Origin: Desulfohalobium retbaense DSM 5692
Lineage (GTDB): Bacteria > Desulfobacterota > Desulfovibrionia > Desulfovibrionales > Desulfohalobiaceae
Direction: 5' to 3'
Assembly (NCBI RefSeq): GCF_000024325.1
Contig: NC_013223.1
Coordinates: 930,001 to 994,000, forward strand
Length of the DNA stretch: 64,000 bases
The position numbers and the translations under genes were made by a program. Below, one piece after another: positions 50,284-53,100 of the stretch; position 1 is the first letter of the stretch, and every line of letters starts with the position of its first letter. The notes under the pieces are model-generated. The model saw only the letters and a program-made list of their open reading frames with translations, was not told the DNA's origin and did no database searches.

Positions 50284-50805
50284 CTCCGGGAGCCAACCGG
50301 GAAGCCGTCTTTCTGCTTCCCGCCTACATCGATACCTGATTGAAGGGCCGCAATCGTTTTCTGGATTGCGGCCCTTCAACGTTTTCGGAAGTCAGCGTCT
50401 TTCGTGCGCGGCTGTAGAGGTGGTCCAGGTGCTCGTCTGGACTGAAAGCGGTGGCATTTCTCCAGGCATCGCCCAATCGGTTGTACGATATGGTCAGCAG
50501 TACGGTGAAGGTGAAAATGGGTGGGGCCCGGAGGCGTTGCACTGGAGCGGAGAGCCGGGTCGTGGATTGGGAAATTTGTGCCACAGCCGGTTCGTCGAAA
50601 GGCGGATCCCTGTGGGCCCTGCGGCCTGAAAGGGGCCTTGAGCCAATTGGCAGCTTGCAGCCAAACCCCTTTTGGCCTACTTTCAGTCCTCCTGGACGTG
50701 GGTAACGCCCGGGAAACAGGTGATTTTTTGTGACACACCTGTTAAAAAAGCCTTGTCTGGAAGTTGTGCGTTTTCGACCTGTTGCAGCTTAAAGGAAGAC
50801 CAGTT
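50284..50805. other. Long intergenic region with hairpins upstream of the cysteine synthase fusion
   Basis: These 522 bp have no recognised gene. They hold a GGGAAGC/GCTTCCC stem (50300-50322), a perfect 15-bp stem (50341-50378) and an AACAGGTG/CACCTGTT stem (~50717-50745). No T-box specifier or AGGGTGG-type antiterminator sequence was seen, so a tRNA-sensing leader is not supported. Confidence 0.6.
50341..50378. terminator. Perfect 15-bp stem-loop after the APH-like gene
   Basis: TGAAGGGCCGCAATC and its exact complement surround an 8-nt loop. No T-run follows on either strand, so it may be a weak terminator or an mRNA-stabilising hairpin. Confidence 0.6.
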
Positions 50806-53100
50806 TTGTCGCCAACACCACCCAATGTCCTTTCCTTGATCGGCAAGACCCCTCTGGTTCCTGTCCATCGCCTGAATCCCTATCCCAGTGTCTGTATTGA
50901 GGCCAAGCTGGAAAAGCTCAATCCTGGCGGTTCGGTCAAAGACCGCGTGGCGCTGGCCATGGTCGAGGCAGCGGAACGCAGTGGGCAATTGACGCCAGGC
51001 AAGACCCTTATTGAAGCGACCTCCGGCAATACCGGAATAGGGTTGGCCATGGTCTGTGCGGTCAAAGGGTACACCCTGCGGCTGTTGATGCCCGAATCGG
51101 CTTCAGAAGAGCGTCGTCGTATCCTGCGGGCCTATGGAGCGCAAATCCAATTGACGCCCGGTCACCTCGGTACCGATGGCGCGATTGAAGAGGCCTATCG
51201 CATGGCCCGGGAAGAGCCCGAGTTCTATGTCCTGATGGACCAGTTCAACAATCCAGCGTCGATTGCCGCCCATTATGAGACCACGGCCCCGGAAATCTGG
51301 GAGCAGACCGCAGGGGAGGTAACCCATGTGGTCGTGGCTTTGGGAACCAGCGGGACAGCCATGGGGCTCAGCCAGCGGCTCAAGGAATACAACCCGGCCG
51401 TGGAGGTTGTTGGTGTGGAACCCTATGCGGGGCACAAGATCCAGGGCCTGAAGAATATGCAGGAGTCCTATCCGCCCGGAATTTATGAGCGGAACCAACT
51501 GGATCGTATTGTGCGGGTCGATGACGAACAGGCTTTTGGTTTGTGCCGGGCATTGGCTCAAAAAGAAGGCATTTTTGCCGGCCTGAGTTCCGGTGCGGCC
51601 TTGGCAGGCGCACTGACCCTGGCCGCTGAGATCCCCTCAGGGCGAATTGTTATCATCTTTCCGGATGGTGGAGAGCGGTACCTGAGCACTCCCGTCTTTG
51701 ATCCTCCGGCCAAGCAGGGCATGCGCCTTTTGGACCTGCAAAGCGGTGAGAAGCGGCATATATTTGTCCAGAAAAACGCCCTGGGAGTCTTCACGCCCGG
51801 GCCCGGCCCCGAGGAATTGGAGCAGCCGGAGCTCTGGCGCCGTCTGGTCTGGGCGGACATCCTGGTTCGCTATCTCCGGCACAAGGATTTCGAGGTGCAC
51901 GGGGTGGTCGGCCTTGCAGACTGGGATGAACACCTTTCCCATCTGGCTGAACAGCAAGGCTGCAATTTGCAGGAAATGCGAGGGGCCATGCTCGATCGGG
52001 CCGAGGCTTTGCTGCGCCGGCTCGGGTTGGAAACTGGCTGGCATTGTCAGGCGGCAAGCCAGTGCCGCGAGACCCAATTGGCGCTGTGCCGTGAACTGGT
52101 CCGTAAGGGGCTGGGGTATGAAAAATTGCGCTCGGTCTATTATGACGTCGGCCGTGACACCGATTACGGGGTCTTACGACGTACCGATCTGGCGAAGCTC
52201 TCCCTGGGAAAAACTGTGGATCTCGACCGCTATGCCAAAGATAATCCCCGGGATTTTACATTGTTGAAACGGACCAACCTCGCCGATCTCAAGCGGGGGG
52301 ATTTCTGGAAGACAGAATGGGGCAATGTCCGGCCGAGCTGGTATCTGCAAATGGCCGCCGCGGCCTTGGCAGAGGGTATCGCCATGGATGTGGTCTTGGC
52401 CGGGCGAGCCCACCATTTTCCGCATATGGAAAACCTCCGGGCTCTCTGGGCGGTTCGCAATGCCCTGCCTCAGGTCTGGCTCATGACCCAGGCGGTGGAA
52501 GGAGAGGCCATCGTCCCTGATATCGAAACGGCCAGCGAACGGCTCGGCGGCATGCATGCTTTGCGTTTGTGGTTGCTCTCTGGCGGGTATCGCAAACCCC
52601 TGCACTCCTCTGAGGACAACGCGACCATGTGGCGCCGCAATTGGGAGAGGCTACAGGAAAGCGTGGCTACGCTGCATGTCGCCCGCGGCGAGGGTGGACA
52701 GGTGGATCCGGGCTTTGAGCAGACGCTCTACGATGTCAAGACAATGTTCTGGGACCAATTGGAAGACGACTTGGATCTCCAGCATTTTTGGCCTGTACTC
52801 TGGAGTTTATGCCGAACGATCCTCAAAAAGGCCTCCCAGGGCCGACTGGCTCCGGTCGAGGCCGCTCGAGGCTGGAAACTTGTGACGGATCTGGACACGA
52901 TTCTCGGCGTGGTCGATTGGCATACACTGCCCTTACGTCAGGATCAGTGGCCTGAGGGGGTTCGGGATCGGATCGCATTGCGCGAACAGGCCCGGCGCGA
53001 TCGGGATTTTGCCCGGGCCGATCTCCTGCGTCAGGAAATCGTCGCCAAAGGGTACCGGCTTGAAGACACCCCCCAAGGGCCGCGAGTATTTCCGGCTTGA
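50806..53100 (+). CDS. Cysteine synthase fused to a cysteinyl-tRNA synthetase-like module lacking catalytic motifs
   Basis: 764 residues from a TTG at 50806 with AAAGGA upstream. Residues 1-303 are a complete PLP O-acetylserine sulfhydrylase-like enzyme: PLP lysine K45 in NPGGSVKDR, the SGNTG loop at 73-77 and the GTSGT loop at 180-184. Residues ~317-764 align with CysRS from its Rossmann core to its C-terminal domain (ADLLRQEIVAKGY, LEDTPQGPR). The HIGH segment is GPGPEELEQPEL and KMSKS is AIVPD. Of the four CysRS zinc ligands only the His near FPHMEN (H540) is retained. Aminoacylation is therefore unlikely. The role may be cysteine sensing, tRNA(Cys) binding or allosteric control of the synthase. 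Confidence 0.9.
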   Translation: MSPTPPNVLSLIGKTPLVPVHRLNPYPSVCIEAKLEKLNPGGSVKDRVALAMVEAAERSGQLTPGKTLIEATSGNTGIGLAMVCAVKGYTLRLLMPESASEERRRILRAYGAQIQLTPGHLGTDGAIEEAYRMAREEPEFYVLMDQFNNPASIAAHYETTAPEIWEQTAGEVTHVVVALGTSGTAMGLSQRLKEYNPAVEVVGVEPYAGHKIQGLKNMQESYPPGIYERNQLDRIVRVDDEQAFGLCRALAQKEGIFAGLSSGAALAGALTLAAEIPSGRIVIIFPDGGERYLSTPVFDPPAKQGMRLLDLQSGEKRHIFVQKNALGVFTPGPGPEELEQPELWRRLVWADILVRYLRHKDFEVHGVVGLADWDEHLSHLAEQQGCNLQEMRGAMLDRAEALLRRLGLETGWHCQAASQCRETQLALCRELVRKGLGYEKLRSVYYDVGRDTDYGVLRRTDLAKLSLGKTVDLDRYAKDNPRDFTLLKRTNLADLKRGDFWKTEWGNVRPSWYLQMAAAALAEGIAMDVVLAGRAHHFPHMENLRALWAVRNALPQVWLMTQAVEGEAIVPDIETASERLGGMHALRLWLLSGGYRKPLHSSEDNATMWRRNWERLQESVATLHVARGEGGQVDPGFEQTLYDVKTMFWDQLEDDLDLQHFWPVLWSLCRTILKKASQGRLAPVEAARGWKLVTDLDTILGVVDWHTLPLRQDQWPEGVRDRIALREQARRDRDFARADLLRQEIVAKGYRLEDTPQGPRVFPA

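Follow-up and report, generated by a model that had tools for sequence, protein, structure and literature searches.

The window analysed is a stretch of 64,000 nucleotides of Desulfohalobium retbaense DSM 5692 (contig NC_013223.1, positions 930,001 to 994,000 of the forward strand), the source organism in what follows. A frame of 764 codons at positions 50806-53097 (+ strand) is open throughout and ends with a stop codon. The encoded protein consists of a cysteine synthase (residues 1-304) followed by a complete cysteinyl-tRNA synthetase (CysRS) fold (residues 305-764). The AlphaFold model of the whole protein has a mean predicted local distance difference test score (pLDDT) of 91.2 and a predicted template modelling score (pTM) of 0.84. 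The earliest possible start of the frame is a TTG codon at 50764, and ATG is absent between 50764 and 50806. The features of the gene are as follows.

50806-53100, + strand: whole fusion gene, 764 codons plus stop, TTG start, aligned with 78 homologues
50792-50798, + strand: Shine-Dalgarno-like AAGGAAG, about 8 nucleotides 5' of the TTG, recognized from the sequence
50806-51717, + strand: cysteine synthase half, residues 1-304, CysM-like, pyridoxal phosphate (PLP) fold type II (PALP, TIGR01136, 3dki)
50938-50940, + strand: K45, PLP Schiff-base lysine, invariant in 79/79 aligned fusions
51451-51453, + strand: K216, equivalent of R210 of E. coli CysM by alignment pairing, invariant in 79/79
51718-53097, + strand: CysRS-derived module, residues 305-764 (TIGR00435, 129.4 bits; 1u0b_B, Z 42.0, 435 residues aligned)
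51796-51798, + strand: P331, at the position of zinc ligand C28 by alignment
51823-51834, + strand: QPEL (340-343) replacing HIGH, by alignment with E. coli H37-H40
52351-52353, + strand: M516, at the position of zinc ligand C209 by alignment
52423-52425, + strand: H540, retained at zinc-ligand position H234 by alignment
52435-52437, + strand: L544, at the position of zinc ligand E238 by alignment
52474-52530, + strand: region 557-575, in which the KMSKS loop is deleted, by alignment with E. coli K266-S270
52954-53097, + strand: anticodon-binding C-terminal domain (717-764), R726, R730, D739, R742, and D754 kept (43.8 bits)

A cysteine synthase joined to a CysRS-derived module

The synthase half matched the Pfam family PALP (2.2e-75) and the NCBIfam model TIGR01136 cysKM (359.7 bits, above the curated cut-off of 344.15). 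The best-scoring model was TIGR01138 cysM (363.0 bits), which nevertheless remained below its own curated cut-off (394.2). Structural comparison of this half with CysM (3dki) gave a Z score of 42.7. The motifs SGNTG and GTSGT are located at positions 73-77 and 180-184, respectively, and K45, S73-G77, G180, T181, G183, and T184 are invariant in the 79 aligned fusions. No TIGR01136 match (E ≤ 1e-50) apart from the fusion was detected in 18 of the 35 fusion genomes of a phylum sample, and the fusion was the sole cysteine synthase match in 11 of the 43 fusion genomes of an order sample (both defined below). Because the catalytic residues are invariant and many genomes offer no other match to TIGR01136, the N-terminal half is very probably a working cysteine synthase.

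The C-terminal half matched Pfam tRNA-synt_1e (3e-21) and, far under the cut-off of 340 bits, TIGR00435 (129.4 bits), with an alignment reaching profile position 462 of 466. Residues 305-764 paired with chain positions 1-461 of E. coli CysRS, taken from an entry containing bound tRNA(Cys) (1u0b_B; Z 42.0, 435 residues). MshC (3c8z; Z 40.0) covered residues 304-704 only. TIGR03447, the MshC model (cut-off 485.1 bits), did not match the module of the window at E ≤ 1e-30 and gave 209.7 bits with L155, a relative with near-canonical motifs. The original prediction, made from the sequence alone, had proposed an uninterrupted 764-codon frame, a synthase half keeping K45, SGNTG, and GTSGT, and a CysRS-like half running to the end of the protein, and had called for comparison with the CysRS and MshC structures. 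The frame and residues are as it described, and the second half occupies the whole CysRS fold. The fusion of a cysteine synthase to a CysRS fold is confirmed. Chance association or an assembly artefact was rejected because the same architecture recurs in more than 100 genomes.

The catalytic motifs of CysRS have been lost from this module. QPEL occupies the position of HIGH, and the KMSKS segment is deleted. With P331, M516, H540, and L544 at the positions of C28, C209, H234, and E238, three of the four zinc ligands are lost and only the histidine is kept. The prediction had listed each of these losses and had asked for a canonical cysS elsewhere; a search of the source genome (2,909,567 bases in two contigs) located one at C1:646151-647596. 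An active CysRS in the source organism was therefore rejected as a reading of the module, since the motifs are missing and a separate cysS is present. Judged from its residues, the module in all likelihood no longer makes cysteinyl-adenylate or charges tRNA in this organism, and the loss of aminoacylation originally proposed is well supported. Of the roles that the prediction offered for the module, namely cysteine sensing, binding of tRNA(Cys), and channelling of cysteine, the present evidence favours tRNA(Cys) binding, so that its interpretation is supported in part.

Distribution of the fusion and graded loss of the synthetase motifs

The module was matched (E < 1e-35) in 122 of 199 sampled genomes of the order of the source organism, and the stand-alone cysS genes among the rows listed in that sample scored 2.7e-31 or weaker. 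A synthase match within an open frame of at least 740 codons was detected in 43 of 61 order genomes (a count leaving out G039, whose frame is shorter), and all 43 were among the 122. In a sample of 89 genomes of the phylum, 37 contained a synthase match in a frame of at least 700 codons, with an adjoining CysRS match in 35 of them, including the source genome. A scan of contigs confirmed at least 589 relatives of the query, and the best 80 of these, which were kept, came from records whose titles name sulfate-reducer lineages or wider groups such as Proteobacteria. The collected set comprised 103 distinct fusion sequences in addition to that of the window, after removal of 6 identical ones; L104, whose frame is broken, was not included in the alignment. 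The fusion occurs widely across the source phylum and is not a lone oddity.

Several minor observations accompany this distribution. Synthase matches at G216:C38:95709-96596 and G253:C2:267368-268246 lie in 877- and 871-codon frames devoid of a CysRS half, which represent either run-on reading or a fusion of a different kind. Sampling of g10 (including G010), a sizeable group of genus rank within the order of the source organism, detected no fusion, an absence that may reflect loss in that lineage. Genome G032 (L014) contains two copies, on contigs C161 and C51. Frames of 930-1480 residues at some loci were considered as larger proteins and rejected on the basis of one stretch, upstream in L069, which matched no Pfam family and is taken as a run-on frame.

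Motifs were surveyed in 89 fusions sharing less than 85% identity and in 32 stand-alone CysRS, with L087 and L117 excluded because they contain X. The zinc ligands were complete (CCHE) in 35 of the 89 fusions and intermediate in five (DCHE, DCHV, DSHE, NCHE, and CCHV). The remaining 49, including the window protein, have lost C28, C209, and E238 altogether and are referred to as stripped. HIGH and KMSKS were eroded to varying degrees within the CCHE fusions. Nineteen phylum regions were fetched to examine near-canonical motifs, of which 15 contained fusions and four belonged to a different CysRS clade. The fourth HIGH residue of the 15 fusions was found in the contexts HLGN (three) and NLGH (one) or was hydrophobic or proline (11), and KMSRS was present in 12. 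L155 combines HLGN, KMSRS, and CCHE, and scored 461.1 bits with TIGR00435. A separate, higher-scoring cysS was present in all 15 genomes supplying the near-canonical fusions. In the phylum sample, a separate CysRS match was detected in 33 of the 35 fusion genomes (as a fragment in G221 and in two pieces in G005), the two genomes lacking one being G203 (79% complete) and G274 (62% complete). As a side observation, L165, L166, and L171 (G255, G218, and G290) form a separate CysRS clade with HIGN or HLGN and KMAKS. The frames of L165 and L171 continue 3' into a glycosyltransferase family 2 domain (Pfam), and L166 is similar by appearance; G255 and G218 each hold a separate-clade CysRS, a separate cysS, and a fusion.

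A tree of the CysRS part was built by a quick search with Shimodaira-Hasegawa-like approximate likelihood ratio (SH-aLRT) support from 53 fusions, 30 stand-alone CysRS, and four members of another CysRS clade. All 53 fusions were on one side of a branch (support of 100), and the 30 stripped fusions formed one clade nested among the other fusions (support of 100), in an alignment containing one long row (L081) and many rows of uneven letter make-up. On this evidence, the stripped state is derived, since many relatives keep an intact zinc site and score as CysRS. Trees were also built separately for the synthase and CysRS halves of the same 79 proteins, and both recovered the 40 stripped proteins as one side of a branch. 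The branch leading to the stripped clade measured 1.11 changes per site for the CysRS half versus 0.09 for the synthase half, which argues that the CysRS half was rebuilt once and the synthase left alone.

The rebuilt module retains conserved positions. Twenty-three module residues are invariant across the 79 fusions, and the listed full-length fusion rows are free of internal stops. In the stripped clade, columns conserved at 90% or more number 84 of 454 in the module and 137 of 295 in the synthase half; judged by these 84 columns, the module is constrained again after a burst confined to one branch. A different residue became fixed at ten positions of the module, versus three in the synthase half. 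Four of the ten are tryptophans (W344, W548, W609, and W662; window positions 51835-52791), which are nearly invariant in the stripped clade, the CCHE relatives having mostly other residues. M608 also became fixed. The new tryptophans may fill the old active site.

Proposed substrate, tRNA docking, and function

The position equivalent to R210 of CysM is glycine in O-acetylserine sulfhydrylase A (OASS-A), and it contributes to the selection of O-phosphoserine in some microorganisms (PMC3805590, extract; PMC citations below likewise refer to extracts). In the fusions, this position is occupied by the invariant basic residue K216. The 89 phylum genomes were then compared for synthase (E ≤ 1e-50) and cysE (E ≤ 1e-20) matches. 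A cysE match was present in one of the 18 genomes in which the fusion is the only synthase match, and that cysE match was weak (G249). It was present in all 17 genomes containing the fusion and another synthase and in 41 of the 52 containing other synthases only; two genomes had no synthase match. Fisher tests, in which kinship was ignored, gave 4.2e-9 for fusion-only versus fusion-plus-other and 3.9e-8 for fusion-only versus other-only genomes. Since cysE is undetected in 17 of 18 fusion-only genomes and K216 is invariant, an O-phosphoserine route is predicted: the fusion synthase probably uses O-phosphoserine and sulfide rather than O-acetylserine.

The opposite end of the protein resembles the anticodon-binding tail of CysRS. 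A profile built from 32 stand-alone CysRS tails (E. coli 404-460) matched 49/49 stripped tails (median 42.5 bits; window 43.8), as well as 35/35 CCHE and 5/5 intermediate tails. Of 89 shuffled tails, none matched (maximum 5.4 bits). Equivalents of E. coli R423, D436, and R439 are present in 49/49 stripped fusions and that of D451 in 48/49; the R427 equivalent is Arg in 39 and Lys in seven, and the W432 position is aromatic in all 49. R427, D436, and D451 are residues that we take to contact the anticodon in the E. coli CysRS complex. From this conservation, the prospect that the module still docks tRNA(Cys) is about even.

We tentatively propose that an O-phosphoserine-type synthase is attached to a non-charging module that binds tRNA(Cys) and thereby makes cysteine synthesis responsive to this tRNA. 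In the proposed mechanism, the C-terminal half, which descends from CysRS and in all likelihood no longer charges tRNA in the source organism, would dock tRNA(Cys) via the anticodon. Charged or uncharged tRNA(Cys) would then set the activity or location of the attached synthase, so that cysteine supply would follow translational demand; in members whose zinc site is intact, free cysteine may be sensed in addition. The coupling step is plausible while falling a little short of even, and is preferred because the synthase works, charging has been removed, an anticodon reader has been kept, and the synthase half remained unchanged during the rebuilding of the module. A tRNA-gated enzyme in the strict sense, in which uncharged tRNA(Cys) recognized by its anticodon directly switches the attached O-phosphoserine sulfhydrylase, is unlikely. 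If it did exist, tRNA charging would control amino-acid synthesis at the protein level without a transcription or riboswitch step, and the same module in zinc-site relatives would read tRNA and free cysteine together.

Several observations weigh against this proposal. The cysE counts are uncorrected for shared ancestry, the cysE profile detects only 10 of 14 controls, and a divergent acetyltransferase could be missed by the search. CysM identity alone is insufficient to establish O-phosphoserine use, because CysM of C. jejuni uses only O-acetylserine (PMC9855970, extract). The source genome itself encodes a second cysteine synthase (TIGR01139 cysK, 433.6 bits, over the cut-off), located about 2 kb from a serine acetyltransferase gene of the EpsC type (L174:4635-8682), whose product fails the cysE model (169.6 versus 210.65) and passes the EpsC model (163.2 versus 150). 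This proximity of an EpsC-type acetyltransferase to a canonical cysK suggests that cysteine is made by two parallel routes in the organism, and its own cysE and CysK mean that the fusion of the window is not forced onto O-phosphoserine. In the tail, W458 is replaced by V or L in most stripped fusions, and the conserved residues could be structural rather than tRNA-binding. Pfam CysS_C gave 16.6 bits on the window tail alone, below the cut-off of 23, and was not reported when the whole protein or the module was scanned; it passes the cut-off in L018 and L025 and fails in L012 and L063. Finally, of the 35 phylum-sample fusions, 28 score above the NCBI cysteine--tRNA ligase cut-off.

Together with L155, which passes the same cut-off (461 versus 340 bits), the last observation suggests that some of the modules outside the clade of the window may have remained synthetases. 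It would fit a fusion channelling fresh cysteine into Cys-tRNA by a module that is, or was, an active CysRS, perhaps in many relatives and not in the window protein. This is improbable as a general account: a better-scoring cysS accompanies each of the 15 near-canonical fusions, a separate match exists in 33 of the 35 phylum-sample genomes with a fusion, 11 of the 15 have a hydrophobic residue or proline at the end of HIGH, and the window protein has neither HIGH nor KMSKS nor a zinc site. Other chemistry, either cysteine persulfide synthesis or MshC-like cysteine ligation, could be imagined for a CysRS homologue placed beside a PLP enzyme in a probably sulfide-producing cell, and the MshC structure does match with a Z of 40.0. 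It is very improbable. Persulfide synthesis by CysRS needs K73, K76, K266, and K269 (PMC5660078, extract), whose positions are H376, H379, and two gaps in the window protein; this reading was rejected because these lysines are missing. The MshC reading was rejected as well, since MshC also adenylates cysteine (PMC2922099, extract) and should need the ATP motifs that have been lost.

Two further alternatives do not call for catalysis by the module. It might be an amino-acid sensor without tRNA, in which cysteine, O-phosphoserine, or another ligand in the old aminoacyl site tunes the synthase. HisZ, which acts on HisG (PMC9437257, extract), offers a precedent, 35 of 89 fusions keep the cysteine-thiol-reading CCHE site while HIGH and KMSKS erode, and equivalents of W205 (49/49) and G29 (48/49) are kept in the stripped clade. 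In that clade, however, the zinc site and the H206 and E208 equivalents are replaced, W344, W548, M608, and W609 are fixed, and the anticodon tail, for which a module that only senses would have no use, is retained. The match to MshC, an enzyme that acts independently of tRNA, stops at residue 704 of the model. A sensor of this kind is rather unlikely overall; it agrees better with the CCHE relatives than with the window protein, for which the kept tail, the vanished zinc and cysteine site, and the newly fixed bulky residues favour tRNA(Cys) binding over plain cysteine sensing. That the module is an inert scaffold or a decaying relic assisting folding or oligomerisation of the synthase is still less likely. 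Such a fate would agree with its faster evolution (total tree length on the same rows of 39.5 versus 23.6 for the synthase half), its smaller share of conserved columns, and a few broken members (L104 and G182, split between frames, and G212, split with a stop in the second part). It fits poorly with the 23 invariant module residues, and the intact full-length rows and the residues fixed after the burst also speak against it; moreover, CysK and CysM are active without a CysRS-type module.

Related systems and gene neighbourhoods

HisZ acting with HisG is the nearest working analogue of the proposed coupling to tRNA(Cys), with a different ancestry and architecture. HisZ, a synthetase paralogue lacking adenylation, regulates the enzyme making the same amino acid, and HisZ and AS-A exemplify the recruitment of synthetase paralogues to amino-acid synthesis (PMC9437257, extract). 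The module studied here has lost its adenylation motifs and is attached to a cysteine synthase, on which it may act in a comparable way; as a relative of CysRS and not of the histidyl-tRNA synthetase (HisRS), it does not belong to the HisZ group. HisZ is a separate subunit derived from the class II HisRS, whereas the module descends from CysRS, a class I enzyme, is fused in cis to the synthase, and still has its anticodon-binding domain. CysRS* of Desulfobacterales is likewise a non-canonical CysRS of related bacteria; it has no anticodon domain and aminoacylates a SelC-like tRNA, the fusion module being the opposite on both counts (PMC9437257, extract). Canonical CysRS (TIGR00435) shares with the module the whole fold (1-461) and the anticodon-domain residues, whereas HIGH, KMSKS, and the zinc site are missing from the module (129 bits versus 340).

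MshC is also a CysRS paralogue working outside translation, and does so without tRNA. It keeps the adenylation chemistry and ends, in the comparison, at residue 704, the reverse of the fusion module. CysM and O-phosphoserine sulfhydrylase (for example 3dki) resemble the synthase half in fold, catalytic residues, and a basic residue at position 210; they are single-domain proteins of about 300 residues, to which the fusion adds a 460-residue CysRS module. In the CysE-CysK cysteine synthase complex, cysteine synthesis is regulated through a partner of the synthase. That partner is a serine acetyltransferase, found in only 1 of 18 fusion-only genomes.

Literature searches found no description of a fusion between a cysteine synthase and a stripped CysRS, and no report of a synthetase paralogue covalently joined to a biosynthetic enzyme with the anticodon domain kept. 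Since living relatives span forms from near-canonical (HLGN, KMSRS, and zinc site) to fully stripped, the steps from synthetase to presumed regulator are testable enzyme by enzyme. The loss of the charging machinery and retention of the tRNA-reading end suggest a direct link between cysteine production and the translation apparatus. The fusion bears on cysteine production in sulfate reducers, being the sole synthase found in 18 of the 35 sampled fusion genomes. DVU0663, a cysK of D. vulgaris that is raised in biofilms (PMC3431258, extract), is a candidate for the same fusion.

In the window, no promoter or terminator signal exceeded that of shuffled sequences, and no riboswitch or T-box matched Rfam at the gathering threshold. 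The cutA and kinase-like genes located upstream in the window were absent among the recurrent neighbours printed. No conserved operon was seen, the largest cluster of shared neighbours comprising 12 of 81 loci. A DsrP-like frame is located directly upstream from the fusion in L100, L109, L114, L116, L119, and L120. The complete dsrMKJOP cluster precedes the fusion in L120 (L120:800-8325; NCBIfam equivalogs), and dsrM, dsrK, and dsrP were confirmed upstream in L109 (L109:696-8349); in L100, L114, L116, and L119, the dsr cluster was assigned by similarity to L120 and L109 only. Because the fusion adjoins dsrMKJOP, the enzyme is, on the evidence of gene order, tied to the sulfite-to-sulfide step in this group.

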